Shown here piece by piece: positions 3,077 through 55,716 of a stretch of 64,000 nt of DNA. Below the pieces are notes generated by a model. It was not told the origin of the DNA. It was given only the letters and a program-made list of their open reading frames with translations, and ran no database searches. The translations under genes were made by a program, and so were the position numbers. Origin of the DNA: Sphingobium xanthum (GTDB lineage Bacteria; Pseudomonadota; Alphaproteobacteria; Sphingomonadales; Sphingomonadaceae). Positions within the stretch are counted from its first letter, which is position 1. Each line of letters begins with the position of its first letter. The stretch covers positions 1-64,000 of the forward strand of contig NZ_JAHKKS010000004.1 in assembly GCF_019737615.1 (NCBI RefSeq). The letters are read 5' to 3'.

Positions 3077-4062
3077 TCCCGCCCGCCGGCGCCCGCGCCT
3101 TCATCGATGCCGCCGGCTGGCAGGAGGCTGAGATTTTGCCGCTGGCGGGAGACGCCTCGTTTCGCCGCTATTTCCGCGTGGTCGATGGCGCGCGCCGGGC
3201 GATCCTGATGGACGCACCGCCGCCGCATGAGGATCCGCGCCCGTTTCTCTCGGTTGGCCAGTGGCTGTGCGATCACGGATTCGCCGCGCCCGAGATTCTC
3301 GCCAAGGATCTGACGCAGGGCCTCGTGCTGCTGGAGGATTTCGGCGATGCGCGGCTGCGCGAACATGTCGATGAGCGGCCTCGGGACGAGGCACCGCTCT
3401 ATGAGCGCGCGGTCGATCTGCTGGTCGATCTGCACAAGCTGCCCGCCCAGGCGGAACTCGCGCCTTATGACCGCGCCGTCTATCAGCGCGAAACGGCGTT
3501 GTTGACCGAATGGTTCTGTCCGGCTGCCGGCCTCGATGTCGACGCCGATGCATATGTCGCGGCCTGGGAAGCCGTGCTGCCGATCGCCGAGCAAGACGAT
3601 GCGCCGGTCGTGACCGTGCTGCGCGACTATCATGCCGAGAACATCATGCTGCTGCCCGACCTCACCCGGTCGCGCGGTCTTGGCCTTCTCGACTTTCAGG
3701 ACGCGCTCGCCGGGCATCCCGCTTATGATCTCGTCTCCTTCCTTCAGGATGCGCGCCGTGACGTGAGCCCCGCGGTCGAGCAGGCGATGCTGCAGCATTA
3801 TCAGGCCAATGCCCGCTGCTCGGCCGATTTCGAGGCGGCCTATGCGGTGCTCGGCGCCCAGCGCAATGCCAAGATCATCGGCATCTTCACGCGCCTGTGG
3901 AAGCGCGACGGCAAGCCGCGCTATCTCGATTTCCTGCCGCGCATGTGGGGCCTGCTGGAGCGCGATCTCGCCCATCCCGCGCTCGCGCCGGTAACGGCCT
4001 GGTTCGATGCCAATGTGCCGCCCGAGGTGCGTGGCGAACTGCGGATCGACGACGCCGCATGA
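3061..4062 (+). CDS. amgK: N-acetylmuramate/N-acetylglucosamine anomeric kinase AmgK
   Basis: A 333-residue aminoglycoside-phosphotransferase-fold kinase. Motifs are a glycine-rich LAGDASFRRYFRV near the N-terminus, the catalytic loop DYHAENIMLL and the metal-binding LLDFQDALAGHPAYDLV. AmgK phosphorylates the anomeric hydroxyl of MurNAc recovered from peptidoglycan, and the following gene encodes its partner MurU. The ATG at 3061 has GGAGG at 3052-3056. A second in-frame ATG at 3073 forms an ATGA overlap with the tsaE stop, so the true start could be either. Homologues next to tsaE are often annotated only as phosphotransferase; the MurU neighbour makes AmgK the best reading. Confidence 0.85.
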   Translation: MATPMIPPAGARAFIDAAGWQEAEILPLAGDASFRRYFRVVDGARRAILMDAPPPHEDPRPFLSVGQWLCDHGFAAPEILAKDLTQGLVLLEDFGDARLREHVDERPRDEAPLYERAVDLLVDLHKLPAQAELAPYDRAVYQRETALLTEWFCPAAGLDVDADAYVAAWEAVLPIAEQDDAPVVTVLRDYHAENIMLLPDLTRSRGLGLLDFQDALAGHPAYDLVSFLQDARRDVSPAVEQAMLQHYQANARCSADFEAAYAVLGAQRNAKIIGIFTRLWKRDGKPRYLDFLPRMWGLLERDLAHPALAPVTAWFDANVPPEVRGELRIDDAA

Positions 4063-4784
4063 GCATTCAGCTCGACACGGCGATGCTGATGGCGGCCGGC
4101 CTCGGCAAGCGCATGCGACCGCTGACGGCGACGCGCCCCAAGCCGCTCGTGCGCGTGGCGGGACAAGCGCTCATCGATCATGCGCTCGACCGGATCGAGG
4201 ACGCCGGCATTCGCCGCACGGTCGTCAACGTCCATTATCTGGCGGACGCGGTGGAAGCGCATCTTCAGGCCCGCGCCCGACAGACCGGCGCCGACTATCC
4301 GGTCTCCGATGAGCGCGCCAAGCTGCTCGAGACCGGCGGGGGACTCGTCAAAGCGCTGCCGCTCCTGGGCGACGCGCCGTTCCTGTGCGCCAACAGCGAC
4401 AATCTCTGGATCAACGGGCCGGGCGATTCGATCCGGCTGCTCGCCAGCCGCTGGGACGATGCGGAGATGGATGCTCTGCTCCTCGTCATTCCCCATGCCC
4501 GCGCGACCGGGCATCGCGGCCTCGGCGATTTCCATCTCGATCCCCAAGGCCGCCTCAGCCGCCGCAAGTCCGGCCGCGTGGCACCCTTCGTCTATACCGG
4601 TGTGCAGATCATCTCGCCCCGGCTGATCCAGGATCCGCCGAGCGACGTCTTCTCGACCAACATCTTCTGGGATCGCGCCATCGCGCAGGGCCGGGCCTAT
4701 GGCATGACCCATTCGGGCCTCTGGTTCGATGTCGGCACGCCCGAGGCGATTCCGCTCGTCGAGGCCGGGATTGCGGATGGCTGA
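4059..4784 (+). CDS. murU: N-acetylmuramate alpha-1-phosphate uridylyltransferase MurU
   Basis: A 241-residue nucleotidyltransferase beginning in an ATGA overlap with amgK. The N-terminal LMAAGLGKRMRPLT signature and TRPKPLV are the nucleotide-binding motifs of sugar-1-phosphate nucleotidyltransferases. CANSDNLW and FSTNIFWDRAI fit the MurU subgroup. Together with AmgK it converts salvaged MurNAc to UDP-MurNAc, bypassing de novo synthesis and the fosfomycin target MurA. The short length, with no C-terminal beta-helix, separates it from GlmU-type enzymes. Substrate assignment depends on the amgK pairing. Confidence 0.87.
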   Translation: MSIQLDTAMLMAAGLGKRMRPLTATRPKPLVRVAGQALIDHALDRIEDAGIRRTVVNVHYLADAVEAHLQARARQTGADYPVSDERAKLLETGGGLVKALPLLGDAPFLCANSDNLWINGPGDSIRLLASRWDDAEMDALLLVIPHARATGHRGLGDFHLDPQGRLSRRKSGRVAPFVYTGVQIISPRLIQDPPSDVFSTNIFWDRAIAQGRAYGMTHSGLWFDVGTPEAIPLVEAGIADG

Positions 4785-7779
4785 GCGGCGCGCGCCCGCT
4801 CTCCACACCATCCCCGCGCACCGGGCTTTTTCGGACGCGCTCGCCAAGGGGTTGCTGGCGCTCCATGGCGGGACCGACGGCGGCCTGACCCTGGCGCGTG
4901 GGATCGTGCTGCTGCCCAATAATCGCGCGATCCGCGCCGTGCGCGATGCGTTCGTGCGCGCGTCCGGCACCGGACTGCTGCTGCCACGCCTCGTCGCTGT
5001 CGGCGACATCGATCTCGACGAGACTTTGGGCAGCGCGCTCGCGCCGATCGGCGCCGATGCGGCGATTCCGCCCGCCATTGCTCCCGCCGAGCGGCTGATG
5101 ATCCTCGCCCGCCTGATCCGCCAGCGGCGAGAGGCGCAGGGCGAGCGGCTGGAACTGGGCGAGGCCTATCGGCTGGCGACCGCGCTGGCGCAGGCGTTCG
5201 ACCAGCTCACCGTCGAGCGCCGGACACTTGCCGACGTGAAGGCGCTCCAGCCCGACGAGCTGTCCGGCCATTGGCAATCGGCGTTCGGCGAGTTCGAGCT
5301 GCTCATGGATGCGTGGCTGGCGGAGCTGGCGCGGCGCGGCCTCATCGACATGGCAGAGCGGCGCAACCGGCTGCTCGATCATGTCGCTGCCCGCTGGCGC
5401 GAGGCGCCGCCGGATCGCTTCGTCGTGGCGGCCGGTATCGTGACCAATGCGCCGGCTGTGGCGGGACTGCTGAAGACCGTCGCGAACCTGCCGCAGGGCA
5501 TGGTGGTGCTGCCCGATCTCGACCAGAATTTGACGCCGGAGCAATGGAAGGAGATTGGCCCTGTCGCGCCGCCCGAACCGGGGGAAACGCGGCCCCCGGC
5601 GCGGGATTCCCATCCGCAATATGCGCTGAAGCTGCTGCTGCATCGGATGGATGTGCATCGCGACGAGGTCGCGCTCTGGCGCTGGGGCAGCGAGCATGAT
5701 GCCCGCGCCGCGCGGGGCAAGGCGATCAGCAATGCGATGCTGCCTGCCTTGCTCACCGGCGGCTGGCCCGATGTGCCGCCCGCCGAACGCTCGCTGAAGG
5801 ATGTGCATGCGATCGAGGCCGCCAATCCGGCGGAAGAGGCGCAAGCGATCGCCATCGCCTTGCGCGAGGCGGTCGAGACGCCCGGCCGGACGGCCGCGCT
5901 GGTGACGCCCGACCGCGATCTCGCCACGCGTGTCTCGGCGCATTTGCGGCGCTGGGGTATCGATGCGGACGATTCCGCCGGCCGTCCGCTGGCGCAGCTC
6001 CCGCCCGGCACCTTGCTGCTCGCACTGGCGCAGGCGGGGGCGGAGCAGTTCGCGCCGGTCGCCTTGCTCGCCCTGCTCAAGCATCCGCTGGTGAAAGCCG
6101 GGGGGGAGCGGCTTGGCTGGCTGGAGCAGGTCCGCGCGCTCGATCTGGTGCTGCGCGGCCCGCGTCCGCCGGCTGGCCTGTCCGGCATATCGCGGTTGCT
6201 GGCGGAAGAGGGCGGCCGCCATCGCGAGGCGCGCGCGGCGCTGCGCCTCTGGTGGCCGCAAGTCTCCGAATGGCTGGCCCCGCTGGAAGCGGCGTTCGCC
6301 AGCGAACGGCCCTTGCCCGATCTGTTCGCGGCGCTGCGCGAGACCGCGTCCGCGCTTACCGGCGAGCGCGTCTGGGCCGGGCATCAGGGCCATGCCGCCG
6401 CGCGCTGCGTCGCCGATGCGGAAGCCGCCGCCGTTCATGGCCCGCTGACCGCCGACGGCGCGGGCTTCGTCGGCATGCTCGGCCAGATCCTCTCGGCGCA
6501 GGCCGTGCGCCCGCCACAGGGTGGGCATCCGCGGCTGCAAATCCTCGGCCTGCTCGAAGCGCGCCTGCAGCAGGCCGATCTCATGATCCTCGCCGGTCTC
6601 AACGAAGGCGTGTGGCCGGGCCTGCCGTCGCCGGACCCCTGGCTGGCGACGCGCATCCGTCTGTCGCTCGGCCTGCCGGGCCTCGATTATCGCATCGGCC
6701 TCTCGGCGCACGACTTCGCCAATGGCCTCGGCGCGCCGCAGGTCGTCCTGTCGCGCGCCCGCCGCGACCGCTCGGCGCCGACGATCGCCTCGCGCTTCTG
6801 GCTGCGGCTGAAGGCCATGACCGGCGAGCGCTGGGCGGAAGATCGGCGGTTGATTGCACTGGCGCGGGCGATCGATCGCCCAGTCGCGTTCAGCCTCGAC
6901 TATCAGCGGCCGTCACCTTGCCCCCCGGCGGATGCCCGACCCCTGCGGATCGCCGTGACGGATGTCGACCGGCTCAGTGCCGATCCCTACGCCTTCTATG
7001 CGTCCAAGATACTCCGTCTTTCGCGTCTGGAAGCCGTCGATGCCGATCCCGGACCGGCGTGGCGCGGCACGGCGGCGCACGGAATTTTGAAGCGCTGGAT
7101 GGATGAAGGTGAGCATGATCCGGCGCTGCTTGCGACCTTCGCGCGCGAGATGATCGAGGGGGCAAAGGCTCACCCGCTTCTGCGCGCCCTTTGGCAACCG
7201 CGACTGCTGGCGGCGCTTGACTGGGTGGCGGCGGAAGTCGCCGAGCAGCGGGCAGCAGGCCGGGAAATCCTGTTCGGCGAGAAGCGGGGTGAAATCAGGC
7301 TGGCCGGGGTCGAGCTTCACGGCACGCCCGATCGTGTCGATCGCTTGGAGGACGGTTCCGTCGCGATCGTGGATTACAAGAGCGGTGCGACCGCGAGCGT
7401 GAGGCAGGTCGAAGCCGGTTTTTCGTTGCAGTTGGGGCTGCTCGGCCTGATCGCGCGGGAAGGCGGTTTCGCGGATGTCGAGGCCGGCACCGAGGTCAGT
7501 GGTTTCGAATACTGGAAGCTCAGCAAAAGTGCGCGCGGCGCCTTCGGCCACAAGAGGCTGCTGACCGATCCAAAAGGAGCGCATAAGCGCATCGCGACGG
7601 AGCGTTTTCTGCCGCTTGTTGAGCGCGCATTCGAAAAGGCAGCGACCGACTGGCTCACCGGCCGCGAGCCGTTCGCCGCGCGGCCGCATTCCGATGCGCC
7701 GGTCTTCACCGATTATGATCAGCTGATGCGGCTCGACGAATGGTTCGGGCGCGGCCGGGCAGGGGGCTCGCGTGGCTGA
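4777..7779 (+). CDS. addB: double-strand break repair protein AddB (alphaproteobacterial type)
   Basis: A 1000-residue subunit of the AddAB helicase-nuclease that resects DNA ends for RecA loading. The start overlaps the murU stop by 8 nt. The first 700 residues form an inactivated helicase-like region. The C-terminal part has a PD-(D/E)XK nuclease core: AAHGILKRWMDEGEHD, then GTPDRVDRL (Gly849 on) and IVDYKSG (Asp866, Lys868), the expected D...DxK catalytic set. It is followed by addA with an 8-nt overlap, the standard order in this class. Confidence 0.93.
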   Translation: MAERRAPALHTIPAHRAFSDALAKGLLALHGGTDGGLTLARGIVLLPNNRAIRAVRDAFVRASGTGLLLPRLVAVGDIDLDETLGSALAPIGADAAIPPAIAPAERLMILARLIRQRREAQGERLELGEAYRLATALAQAFDQLTVERRTLADVKALQPDELSGHWQSAFGEFELLMDAWLAELARRGLIDMAERRNRLLDHVAARWREAPPDRFVVAAGIVTNAPAVAGLLKTVANLPQGMVVLPDLDQNLTPEQWKEIGPVAPPEPGETRPPARDSHPQYALKLLLHRMDVHRDEVALWRWGSEHDARAARGKAISNAMLPALLTGGWPDVPPAERSLKDVHAIEAANPAEEAQAIAIALREAVETPGRTAALVTPDRDLATRVSAHLRRWGIDADDSAGRPLAQLPPGTLLLALAQAGAEQFAPVALLALLKHPLVKAGGERLGWLEQVRALDLVLRGPRPPAGLSGISRLLAEEGGRHREARAALRLWWPQVSEWLAPLEAAFASERPLPDLFAALRETASALTGERVWAGHQGHAAARCVADAEAAAVHGPLTADGAGFVGMLGQILSAQAVRPPQGGHPRLQILGLLEARLQQADLMILAGLNEGVWPGLPSPDPWLATRIRLSLGLPGLDYRIGLSAHDFANGLGAPQVVLSRARRDRSAPTIASRFWLRLKAMTGERWAEDRRLIALARAIDRPVAFSLDYQRPSPCPPADARPLRIAVTDVDRLSADPYAFYASKILRLSRLEAVDADPGPAWRGTAAHGILKRWMDEGEHDPALLATFAREMIEGAKAHPLLRALWQPRLLAALDWVAAEVAEQRAAGREILFGEKRGEIRLAGVELHGTPDRVDRLEDGSVAIVDYKSGATASVRQVEAGFSLQLGLLGLIAREGGFADVEAGTEVSGFEYWKLSKSARGAFGHKRLLTDPKGAHKRIATERFLPLVERAFEKAATDWLTGREPFAARPHSDAPVFTDYDQLMRLDEWFGRGRAGGSRG

Positions 7780-30029: not shown

Positions 30030-30452
30030 CTAGTTGAACACGTGCTCGATCGTCCGGCGCAGCTGGAACGGCGAGACGGGCTTGAAAAGCGTGGCGGCGG
30101 GATGATCCTTGGCGATCCGGTCGATCGTCGCCTGCTCCCGCGATCCGGTGATGAAGATGACCTTCGATCCGTTCTGGTGATGGATGGCGAGCGCGGCATC
30201 GACACCGTCGCGTTCGCCCTTCAGCCGCATGTCCATGAGCACCAGTCGCGGATCATGGACCCGGGCCAGATCGATCGCGTCGTCCGCCGTCGCGGCAATC
30301 CCGCAGACAGCAACGCCCATCTGTTCGAGCTGCAGCTTCAGTCCTTCGGCGATGAGGAACTCGTCTTCGACGACGAGAGCGCAGTTGATCTTGTCGGTCA
30401 GGCTAGTTTCGGCATCGGCAGGGTCACTTTTGCGGTCGTTCCATTGTGCCAT
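30030..30452 (-). CDS. single-domain response regulator
   Basis: A 140-residue receiver with no output domain: acidic pocket VVEDEF (Glu29-Asp30), phosphoacceptor Asp74 in LVLMDMRLKG, ITGS and the conserved Lys in LFKPVSP. Its ATG lies 55 nt inside the end of the ethylene-receptor-like kinase gene, so the two are translationally coupled and almost certainly a cognate pair. With no DNA-binding domain it must signal by protein contact or pass phosphate on. A later CTG at the kinase stop is a possible alternative start. Confidence 0.88.
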   Translation of the reverse strand: MAQWNDRKSDPADAETSLTDKINCALVVEDEFLIAEGLKLQLEQMGVAVCGIAATADDAIDLARVHDPRLVLMDMRLKGERDGVDAALAIHHQNGSKVIFITGSREQATIDRIAKDHPAATLFKPVSPFQLRRTIEHVFN

Positions 30453-31624
30453 TGAATGTCCATTTTTCCTTGTAGCTGGCGGACCAGTCCCTGGATCAAT
30501 CGCTTGCCCAAGCCAGTGCGCGACACCGTTTCGTCTTCTCTGTCTCCGCGGCCATTGTCGCTGACCGTCATCTCGATATTACCCGCATCGGCGCTGCGCG
30601 CCAGCGTCACCGAGATTTTTCCCTCACCATCCTCAAAGGCATGTTTAATGGAATTGGTCACCAGTTCCGTCACCAGAAGCCCGAGTGGCACTGCATAGTC
30701 GAGATTGACCGGCAGTTCGCAGGCATCGACATCGATCTCGACATGCCCGGTGGCACCGGCCGACACGACATTTTCGGTCAACTCCCGCAGAAATGGCGCG
30801 ATGTCGAACGTCTGGAGATCGTGCGAGGTCATCAGCTGCTGATGGACCAACCCGAGCGCGTAAACCCGGGAGCGCAGCGACTGCAATGAGGCTTTCGCAT
30901 CGGAATCGGACAGGCGGCTTTCCTGCATCGTGATGATCGAATCGACGATCTGCAGATTGTTCTTCACGCGATGATAGACCTCGCGCAGCAGCAGATCGCG
31001 CTGTTGCAAGGCTTGGCTCTTTTCCCGCACCATGGATTCGAGCTGGGCGCGGGTCAGGTCGAGATCGTCGAGCGTCTTCTGAAGATGTGCGTTGGCTTCG
31101 GTCAGCGCCGCGGTGCGTTGAGCGACGCGCTCTTCCAGCTCGGTGTTGGCGACGCGGACCTTCTCTTCGCTCGCGAGCAGCAGCTTGTTGGTCTGCTCCT
31201 GCTCGTCGATCTTGCGCGAGAGGACAAGGTTGAGCGACTTCATCTCGGTGGGCGAGGGGAGAGCGAGGAGTCGCGGGATGAGCGGCCAGAGCAAAGCGGC
31301 GGTAATGACCGAAAGCAGGGCCGTGATCGCCTTGACGATCCCTTCGATCCCATAGGCCGCGACCCACAGCACATAGACGGCCAGAAAATGCGTCAGGCCG
31401 CACGCCATGATGAAGGCGACGAACAGATAGACGATCCAGCGGAATTCCAGGTCTTGCCGCCGCACGACGAAGAAGCTCAGCGCCACGGGAATCGAGAAAT
31501 AGGCGAGGCCGATCACGATGTCCGCGATGGCATGAGTCCAGATGAGGCCTGGCGCCCAGGTGAGGCAGAAGCCGTGCGGCGTGAGACCTGTCGGATTGAC
31601 GAGCCAGTTCCAAAGATCGGTCAT
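30398..31624 (-). CDS. histidine kinase with ethylene-receptor-like (EBD) N-terminal domain
   Basis: 408 residues. Three membrane helices (about 29-55, 62-86, 92-118) form a domain very like the ethylene-binding domain of plant ETR1: DIVIGLAYFSIP (Asp35, Tyr42) and AFIMACGLTHF (Ile72, Cys75, His79). These match ETR1 Asp25, Tyr32, Ile62, Cys65 and His69, each offset by exactly 10, with Cys65/His69 being the copper ligands there. A coiled coil (about 140-205) then leads to a HisKA_2-type H-box, REVYHRVKNNLQI (His218), and an ATPase domain (ELVTNSIKHAF, DNGRGD). No GAF domain is present. GGAGG precedes the ATG. The ligand is not proven; kinase identity is certain. Confidence 0.88.
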   Translation of the reverse strand: MTDLWNWLVNPTGLTPHGFCLTWAPGLIWTHAIADIVIGLAYFSIPVALSFFVVRRQDLEFRWIVYLFVAFIMACGLTHFLAVYVLWVAAYGIEGIVKAITALLSVITAALLWPLIPRLLALPSPTEMKSLNLVLSRKIDEQEQTNKLLLASEEKVRVANTELEERVAQRTAALTEANAHLQKTLDDLDLTRAQLESMVREKSQALQQRDLLLREVYHRVKNNLQIVDSIITMQESRLSDSDAKASLQSLRSRVYALGLVHQQLMTSHDLQTFDIAPFLRELTENVVSAGATGHVEIDVDACELPVNLDYAVPLGLLVTELVTNSIKHAFEDGEGKISVTLARSADAGNIEMTVSDNGRGDREDETVSRTGLGKRLIQGLVRQLQGKMDIQWHNGTTAKVTLPMPKLA

Positions 31625-31965
31625 CGCTACCTCCTGCGCCGCAATTCTATCATAGAGCACCACATTCCCATACCAGCGGTCTCATGCGGCCCCTCCGAGA
31701 CTCTAGCCACGCTTCGTCGCACAGTTTCAGCCATTTAACTCCGCTTTAGCAGTTTTCGAAGATCATCCACGGGCAAACGCACAACAAGAAAAACGGCACG
31801 GATATCTCGGCAAGATCGGCCATGCGAGTATTGGCGGACTGAAGAGACCGAGAAACCGCGACCTGAAATATTGTGCGACGGGAAGCAAATTGCGTCGGCC
31901 CTGACGCTCGGCTTCGCATCGCGCGAAGATCCGGGCAGCTGGCGCGAGCACGAGGGTCGGGTCGA
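31625..31965. other. 341-nt divergent intergenic region (EBD kinase / MCP-like gene)
   Basis: It should hold the promoters of both flanking genes. Bases 31700-31900 are less GC-rich than the surroundings. The plus-strand frame of the MCP-like gene stays open upstream to 31873, but the residues there do not look like a folded domain, so I treat them as leader. No repeat, RNA gene or clear operator was seen. Confidence 0.45.
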
Positions 31966-33021
31966 GTGCCACAGAGAATAATCGCGCTGTTCGATCATCT
32001 GCGCGAACATGTCGATCAATTCGGCGATGCCAATGGGGCCATCGTCCGGCAGATCAAGCTGCTGGCGCTCAACGCCGCGATCGAGGCCGCGCGTTCGGGT
32101 GAGGCTGGGCGTGGCTTTTCGGTCGTCGCGCAGGAAGTGAAGGCGCTCGCGGAGCAGGCCAAGACAATGGCCGGCTCGTTCGGCGAAGGGGTGAGCGGCA
32201 GCATTCGCACGGGCGCTGCCGTCGCGGCGCAACTCGCGGAGGAACTCGAAGCGGGCCGCCTCGTCGATCTCACGCAGTCGATGGCGCATTCCGTGCTGGG
32301 CTTGCTCAGCGGCCGCGCTCCCGAAATCTGCACCCTGGCGAGCGACACGGATCTCTATAATGCGCTCGTTGCGCCATCGGACGAGACAATCGCGATAGCG
32401 GAGGCCCGGCTGGCGCTGACCACTTCCTTCTCCAATTTTTATCGCAATGCCTTCATTGCAGATCGCGATGGCAATGTCGTCGCCTCGGCAGACAGGCAGT
32501 CGGCCGCCAAATTCGGCAGCATTGGCGAAACCAGGAGCTTCTCCCAGGCGCTCTCGCTCCCGTCCGCAACGGACTGGTTCGTGGGTGACGTGTGGCAGAC
32601 GCCCGGTGAACGCGACCGGCTTTCGCTCATGTTCAGCGGCGGCGTGCGCCATTGCACGGATCCGCGCGGAAGGCCGGCCGGCGTTGTCGTCTTCGAATAT
32701 GACTGGGGCGGGCAGATCAACACGCTGCTTTCGAGCGCGGCGAGGGCGAGCAGCGAGGCCGAACGAACCCGGCTGACGATCATCGATGGCGAACGCCGGA
32801 TCATCGCGTCGTCCTGGGACGCGCCGTTCGGCGAGCTCTTCCAGGAGAGTTTTCCTGCGCCTTGCGGCGTTTCCCGCCGGGCCGATGCGGTCCTCGCTTA
32901 TGCCAAGGCGCCGCAGAGAAAGGGATTTGATGCTCTGGGTCTGATGTGCCTCATCGAGAAGCGCCACCTCACCAGCGAAGAGATCCGCTCGACCTTCACG
33001 AAGCGGACCGCCGCCGTCTGA
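31966..33021 (+). CDS. soluble MCP-like protein: N-terminal signalling tip, C-terminal Cache-like sensor
   Basis: About 351 residues from a GTG at 31966 (the frame is open to 31873). The N-terminal third contains the highly conserved chemoreceptor hairpin tip, [20 protein letters not shown] plus [19 protein letters not shown], without methylation helices or HAMP. The rest resembles a Cache/PDC sensor: [46 protein letters not shown] and [15 protein letters not shown]. There is no transmembrane segment or signal peptide, so it should be cytoplasmic. The order is inverted relative to ordinary chemoreceptors. It is divergent from the EBD kinase and lies upstream of guaB. Confidence 0.75.
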
Positions 33022-54609: not shown

Positions 54610-55716
54610 TTAGCCGACGTGCGTCGCTTCCCACGCGGACATCGCGCTCCAGGCATCGGCCGAGCCGCTGACCGTGCAGCCCTTGGCGCCGGCGCGGATT
54701 TCGCCGATGCGATGGACGGTCTCGCCCGCCGCGTCGAGCGCTTCGGTCACGGCCGCGACATCCTCTGCCGCCACGACCACCGCCATGCCGATCCCGCAAT
54801 TGAAGGTGCGCGCCATTTCGCCCGGTTCGATATGTCCCTGCGCCTGCAGGAACGCCATCAGCCGCGGCTGTTCCCAGAGATCCGCATCGATGAAGGCATG
54901 CAGATCTGCCGGCAGCACGCGCGGGATATTCTCCAGCAGCCCGCCGCCGGTGATATGCGCCATGGCGTGGATCTTCCCCGCGCGCACCAGCGGCAGCAGC
55001 GGCTTCACGTAGATCTTGGTCGGCGCCATCAGCGCGTCGATCAGCAGCACGTCCTGATCGAACAAGGCCGGCCGGTCGAGCTTCCAGCCCTTGTCGGCCG
55101 CGAGCCGCCGCACCAGCGAATAACCGTTCGAATGCACGCCCGAGGATGCGAGGCCGAGGATCACGTCGCCCGCGGCCACCTTGTCCGCGGTCAGCACCTC
55201 GTCGCGCTCCACCGCGCCGACGCAGAAACCGCCAAGATCATAGTCGCCGGCGGCATACATGCCCGGCATTTCCGCCGTCTCGCCACCGATCAGCGCGCAG
55301 CCCGCCTGCTTGCATCCTTCTGCAATGCCGGCGATCACCTGCTCCGCGACGCCGTTGTCGAGCTTGCCGGTCGCGAAATAGTCGAGGAAGAACAGGGGCT
55401 CGGCGCCCTGCACGATGAGATCGTTGGCGCACATGGCGACGAGGTCGATGCCGACCGTGTCGTGCTTCCCGCTGTCGATCGCGAGCTTGAGCTTGGTGCC
55501 CACGCCGTCATTGGCGGCGACCAGCAGCGGGTCCTTGAACCCGGCTGCCTTCAAATCGAAGAAGCCGCCGAATCCGCCGAGATCGGCATTTGCGCCGGGC
55601 CGCCGCGTCGCCTTGGCGAGCGGGGCAATGGCGCGCACCAGCGCATTGCCGGCGGCGATGTCGACGCCGGCCTGCGCATAGGTATAGGGGGCGGGTTCGT
55701 TGTGCTTCTGGTCCAT
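54610..55716 (-). CDS. purM: phosphoribosylformylglycinamidine cyclo-ligase
   Basis: 368 residues of AIR synthetase, an ATP-dependent step of purine synthesis. [80 protein letters not shown] and [15 protein letters not shown] are diagnostic. It precedes purN on the same strand, probably as one operon, and is divergent from the DUF2066 gene. Confidence 0.96.

Follow-up and report, generated by a model that had tools for sequence, protein, structure and literature searches.

A histidine kinase with an ETR1-type ethylene-binding domain, a HisKA_2 core and an overlapping lone receiver gene in Sphingobium xanthum

Results of our analysis indicate, with fair confidence, that the window, i.e., the whole 64,000-nucleotide stretch of Sphingobium xanthum DNA analysed here, encodes a two-component membrane receptor for ethylene, in which an N-terminal ethylene-binding domain is joined by a helix to a HisKA_2 histidine kinase, and the gene of a lone receiver overlaps that of the kinase. 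The kinase likely binds ethylene, as judged from its sequence, and its gene probably lets the cell sense this gas. The layout of the kinase and receiver genes is already known from the AzoEtr1 system of Azospirillum brasilense; the new part is the HisKA_2 kinase with a receiver clade of its own, of which no mention was found at the level of titles and abstracts. The features of the locus are as follows.

30398..31624, minus strand: sensor histidine kinase, 408 aa, with an ethylene-binding domain, helical linker, HisKA_2, and HATPase_c (Pfam)
31259..31546, minus strand: ETR1_N ethylene-binding domain, residues 27-122 (PF25487 match; predicted model)
31388..31402, minus strand: Cys75...His79, counterparts of the ETR1 copper ligands Cys65 and His69 (alignment)
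30983..31252, minus strand: helical linker, about residues 125-214, running on into the first dimerisation helix (full-length model)
30761..30982, minus strand: HisKA_2 dimerisation/phosphoacceptor domain, His218 in HRVKN (Pfam PF07568)
30410..30688, minus strand: HATPase_c catalytic domain (PF02518, 7.4e-13)
30030..30452, minus strand: lone receiver, 140 aa (Response_reg 2.2e-16; Asp74 in LMDMRL; FITG switch motif)
31966..33021, plus strand: divergent neighbour of the kinase gene, encoding an MCP signalling tip and dCache_1, the latter below the curated cut-off (Pfam)

The kinase gene starts with an ATG at position 31624, with GGAGG 5 bases upstream, and its product begins with MTDLWNW. The match to PF25487 (E 1.8e-35, 121.5 bits vs. 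the curated cut-off of 27) is not due to chance, because of its score and because none of 14 control genomes has an ethylene-binding domain in any of the family searches described below; the profile search thus bears out the sequence-only reading of an N-terminal ethylene-binding domain. The HisKA_2 match (E 3.5e-20) includes the HRxxN motif, present as HRVKN at 218, the catalytic motifs of the kinase are intact, and Pfam gave no GAF or PAS match in it up to E 0.1. Pfam and the full-length model agree that, as had been proposed, the HisKA_2 kinase is joined directly by a helix with no GAF domain. The overlapping next gene, taken earlier for a single receiver, is indeed one: it overlaps the 3' end of the kinase gene by 55 nt, and Pfam reveals no output domain in its product.

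The ETR1 residues D25, Y32, I35, P36, I62, C65, and H69 correspond in our alignment to D35, Y42, I45, P46, I72, C75, and H79 of the window kinase, at a constant offset of +10 and gap-free from D25 to H69. Of the 115 aligned residues of the ETR1 N-terminus, which served as the alignment ruler, 36 are identical to those of the window kinase. The five ligand-site residues that had been named from the letters alone, with this offset and no gap, are therefore where they were said to be. Their number, however, was set too low: according to excerpts of PMC11819568, and, for the positions, in part of PMC6586836, ethylene binding by ETR1 requires seven residues, and all seven are present. Cys65 and His69 of ETR1 have been modelled as copper ligands at the dimer interface, and the copper stoichiometry is described as debated (PMC6586836, in excerpt).

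A three-helix N-terminal domain had also been proposed, and the predictions agree with it and place the Cys and His on helix 2. The AlphaFold model of residues 1-145 (34 sequences, mean pLDDT 82) has helices at 25-55, 62-88, and 91-112, and the hydropathy profile of the N-terminus has three peaks. Since Cys75 and His79 are predicted to lie one helical turn apart (i, i+4), both on helix 62-88, their facing each other is a weak criterion for a binding site. The full-length model contains a single helix at 125-237, with block pLDDT of 90-94 over 141-200; the rest of it is weaker, with a pTM of 0.35 overall. The alignments for the structure models comprised 33 and 11 relatives drawn from the loci collected in this study. 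A Foldseek search for a solved structure on which the ethylene-binding domain could be overlaid gave none at E 0.001, the best E being 1.5.

In excerpts of PMC11819568, AzoEtr1 is described to bind radiolabelled ethylene, to be encoded upstream of an overlapping gene for the lone receiver AzoRR-etr1 (135 aa), and to influence biofilm formation and root colonisation. As AzoEtr1 and the window kinase have the same layout, namely the seven residues in an N-terminal ethylene-binding domain, a histidine kinase, and an overlapping lone receiver, all in Alphaproteobacteria, ethylene binding likely carries over to the latter. By strain and length, our locus L108 (A. brasilense Sp7 plasmid, 525 aa) is the AzoEtr1 gene; its product is 55.9% identical to that of the window gene over residues 16-108, and a separate alignment gives 62 of 127 aligned residues. 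The two kinases differ, in that AzoEtr1 has PAS (PAS_4) and HisKA, whereas the window kinase has HisKA_2 and no PAS, and the AzoEtr1 receiver lies outside the group that holds the window receiver. SynEtr1 (slr1212) of Synechocystis also senses light, through a GAF domain, and acts via a regulator that switches on the transcription of a small RNA (PMC11819568, PMC7700396, both in excerpt), whereas the window kinase has no GAF and its receiver no output domain. Plant ETR1 shares with the window protein the three-helix copper/ethylene domain, predicted in the latter, but the window protein lacks GAF, has a HisKA_2 kinase, and has its receiver encoded by a separate gene.

In Synechocystis and Azospirillum, ethylene binding has been traced to a receptor gene and connected with behaviour, and binding is also described in other cyanobacteria (PMC11819568, in excerpt). 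The role of these domains outside plants and Synechocystis is therefore less open than the sequence-only reading had stated, as the case of AzoEtr1 indicates. Diverse output domains of bacterial receptors of the ethylene type are mentioned in general terms in the excerpted 2020 review (PMC7700396). Among the titles and abstract openings covered by our literature search, there was no report of an ethylene receptor in Sphingomonas, with a HisKA_2 or HWE kinase, or linked to stress. The kinase class assigned to the window protein differs from that of the bacterial ethylene receptors studied so far.

The family search found ethylene-binding domains in 5 of the 94 genomes covered in the genus, 48 of 397 in the order, 31 of 387 in the class, and 31 of 397 in the phylum, these sets being overlapping and each including the window's genome. 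Such domains are not rare and are fairly common in Alphaproteobacteria, which corrects the earlier statement that they occur in cyanobacteria and some proteobacteria. The loci that we collected, 122 with the window included and enriched in Bradyrhizobium, were sorted by home-made profiles seeded by Pfam results into 84 with HisKA (53 with an internal receiver), 25 with HWE, six with HisKA_2, and seven that match none of these three classes. The six HisKA_2 loci (the window, L116, L157, which has PAS, L101/L180, and L182) represent five proteins, L101 and L180 being apparently the same contig, with equal sequence scores. The kinase of L116, a locus of the same genus, is 76% identical to the window kinase over the whole protein. 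In a quick tree of 91 of the 122 sensor domains, those of HisKA_2 proteins fall in separate places, while in a careful tree of 35 of them, the four closest join at 90/78 (not starred) and L182 stands apart. Because the trees differ, we claim neither a single nor a multiple origin of the HisKA_2 fusion.

Four of the receivers encoded next to HisKA_2 kinases, those of the window, L116, L157, and L101, make up a single clade (100/99). In two trees, one of 37 rows and one of 34 (33 from a pool of 87 plus the receiver of L182), this clade is separate from the receivers that go with HisKA ethylene kinases. The receiver encoded upstream of L182 joins this clade at 89/79 in the 34-row tree. The HisKA_2 kinase class goes with one receiver clade, and a receptor with this combination suggests coupling of the gas sensor to more than one signalling network. 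The clade groups with PhyR and with SdrG-like receivers encoded in the window's genome at 93/96 (37 rows) and 97/94 (34 rows), the genome's own receivers having been chosen by the PhyR profile (31 matches, 12 made into loci, nine own receivers placed in the trees), which favours PhyR-like company; PhyR is a long branch in both trees. The AzoEtr1 receiver is outside the PhyR/SdrG-like group in both, but its separation from the window receiver is not wide, because its clade is the next group out (89/84) in the 34-row tree.

In the mechanism that we favour, the three N-terminal helices would form, by homology, the ethylene-binding domain, with Cu(I) held near Cys75 and His79. Bound ethylene would shift these helices, and the shift would pass along the continuous helix (residues 125-237) and reach the HisKA_2 core, where it would alter autophosphorylation on His218. 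Ethylene would most likely reduce the kinase activity, by analogy with what has been proposed for other ethylene receptors. The overlapping receiver would be the cognate phosphoacceptor, at Asp74, and, because it has no output domain, may work through contact with other proteins or else pass phosphate on or drain it.

Together, the kinase and receiver look like the modules found in the general stress network of Alphaproteobacteria. PhyR is encoded in the genome, with a score of 334 bits over its cut-off. A kinase encoded next to phyR has a HisKA_2 match, the sigma-like half of the PhyR profile is matched within a few kilobases of phyR, and a receiver with PFMFATGYG is encoded elsewhere; the names PhyT, EcfG, and SdrG for these three, respectively, are our labelling. 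Excerpts of published studies describe that HWE/HisKA_2 kinases of Sphingomonas melonis feed SdrG, PhyT, and PhyR (PMC5898713) and that in Caulobacter the HisKA_2 kinase LovK and the lone receiver LovR drain phosphate from the stress network (PMC5964349). Because of these two cases, and by analogy only, we propose that the window pair might feed the PhyR/SdrG general stress response, a weaker proposal than that of ethylene sensing. The HisKA_2 kinase is common to the window protein, LovK-LovR, and the Pak/PhyK-type HWE/HisKA_2 kinases, and pairing with a lone receiver is common to it and LovK, the likeness to LovR being one of description (PMC5964349, in excerpt). The scores of the window kinase are, however, far below the cut-offs of the curated equivalogs, i.e., 146.4 of 750 bits for PhyK, in a match spanning residues 184-414 of the 421-aa translation, and 78.5 of 450 for LovK; among 193 class genomes, the LovK family gave one match at E 1e-80 and none over its cut-off. 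The sensor domain of LovK is LOV, whereas that of the window kinase is the ethylene-binding domain. It is conceivable, though less likely than not, that this domain replaces the light sensor of a LovK-LovR-like pair and that ethylene shifts phosphate towards or away from SdrG and PhyR. If so, how bacteria on leaves and roots tolerate stress or attach would be set by plant ethylene. A receptor of the build described here also offers a testable connection of plant ethylene with programmes of stress or attachment in bacteria.

The window receiver is not SdrG itself, as the PFXFATG[G/Y] (FATGUY) motif is absent from it and KVIFITGSR is found instead. The EcfG-type promoter pattern is GGAAC-N16-18-GTT. 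Such a promoter driving the kinase operon was rejected, there being none in front of it and no match to the pattern within 30030-33021. This and the missing FATGUY motif speak against the stress link. The window as a whole contains six matches vs. 1.94 expected, a number reached by 0 of 100 shuffles, and GGAAC-N-GTT matches occur on both strands at an inverted repeat at 54849-54874.

A true ethylene receptor with a dedicated, non-stress output, such as attachment, exopolysaccharide, or chemotaxis, is a serious possibility, if short of an even chance. AzoEtr1 affects biofilm and root colonisation, and the phenotypes of AzoEtr1 and SynEtr1 are described as surface- or biofilm-related (PMC11819568, in excerpt). 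The genome also has four CheW-domain matches, and the MCP-dCache gene, which could belong to such a system, adjoins the kinase gene in both genomes with this cassette, the L116 copy being 68% identical. Its assignment to the receptor system is a guess. Against a dedicated output, no copy was found in the surrounding 9.0, 5.4, and 5.3 kb of L157, L101, and L182, respectively, and the kinase class and receiver clade of the window differ from those of AzoEtr1. Of 61 genus genomes, seven had a match to the MCP-dCache protein at E 1e-20, all except its own copy being 24-27% identical; a paralog with 26% identity is encoded elsewhere in the window's genome. The usual domain order is dCache_1 before the MCP signalling tip, and it is reversed in the product of 31966-33021.

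The surroundings of the window and L116 cassettes are alike, with SPFH/NfeD and hpcH on one side and the MCP-dCache gene and guaB on the other; comparison of their intergenic regions yielded no motif that could be called. Among the hpcH loci of 19 other genus genomes, inspected with 1.5-kb flanks, guaB is present in two (L266 and L271), where it lies at a distance of about 0.6 and 0.1 kb from hpcH, respectively, and no such cassette separates the two genes; neither genome has an ethylene-binding domain. In these 19 genomes, hpcH is 49-58% identical vs. 89% in L116, and SPFH and guaB, where seen, are 83-86% identical.

It is unlikely that the domain senses copper, redox state, or another small ligand, with the copper site kept and ethylene not being the natural signal. 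Such a sensor would agree with the high conservation of the copper ligands (His in 122 of 122 and Cys in 118 of 122 collected loci) and with the loss of the Cys in L148, L151, L191, and L192, which indicates that the domain can drift from an ethylene site. In the window kinase, however, all seven residues are kept, including Ile45, Pro46, and Ile72, none of which is a copper ligand, and a Pfam scan of seven neighbouring proteins revealed none like the product of a copper gene. All seven are found in 112 of the 122 loci, the window included. The four proteins in which the Cys is replaced retain the His and perhaps are no longer ethylene sensors. As support for an ethylene receptor, a copper P-type ATPase encoded in the genome (over the cut-off) carries little weight, because the cut-off is likewise exceeded in 13 of 14 control genomes.

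Between the window and L116, dN/dS is 0.185 for the kinase, 0.158 for its sensor domain, and 0.200 for the receiver; all three are under purifying selection, which is tighter in guaB (0.070). An acquired kinase that is decaying or non-functional would fit the patchy presence (5 of 94 genus genomes) and the location between hpcH and guaB, which are at most 0.6 kb apart in two relatives without the kinase, but is most improbable, being largely refuted by dN/dS of 0.16-0.20 between two species over the kinase, sensor domain, and receiver, and at odds with the intact catalytic motifs.

The sensor domains of the 25 HWE-type loci among the 122 (L112, L122-L126, L128-L130, L133-L137, L139-L145, L149, L151, L164, and L165) make up a separate deep clade, starred, in the quick tree, and 24 of these 25 loci have no same-strand receiver gene right downstream. 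In L171, L174, and L177, the ethylene-binding domain is encoded in open frames of 142-153 aa with no kinase in frame. No such domain was found at E 1e-5 in 50,697 phage records, and it is present in 19 of 72,556 plasmid records, seven of which are from Azospirillum. Two Novosphingobium plasmids among them are typed as conjugative, and their loci, L110 (Novosphingobium sp. ES2-1 plasmid, 3995-5462) and L111, encode a kinase with an ethylene-binding domain and an overlapping receiver; in L110, a type II Cas9 gene lies about 0.8 kb away.
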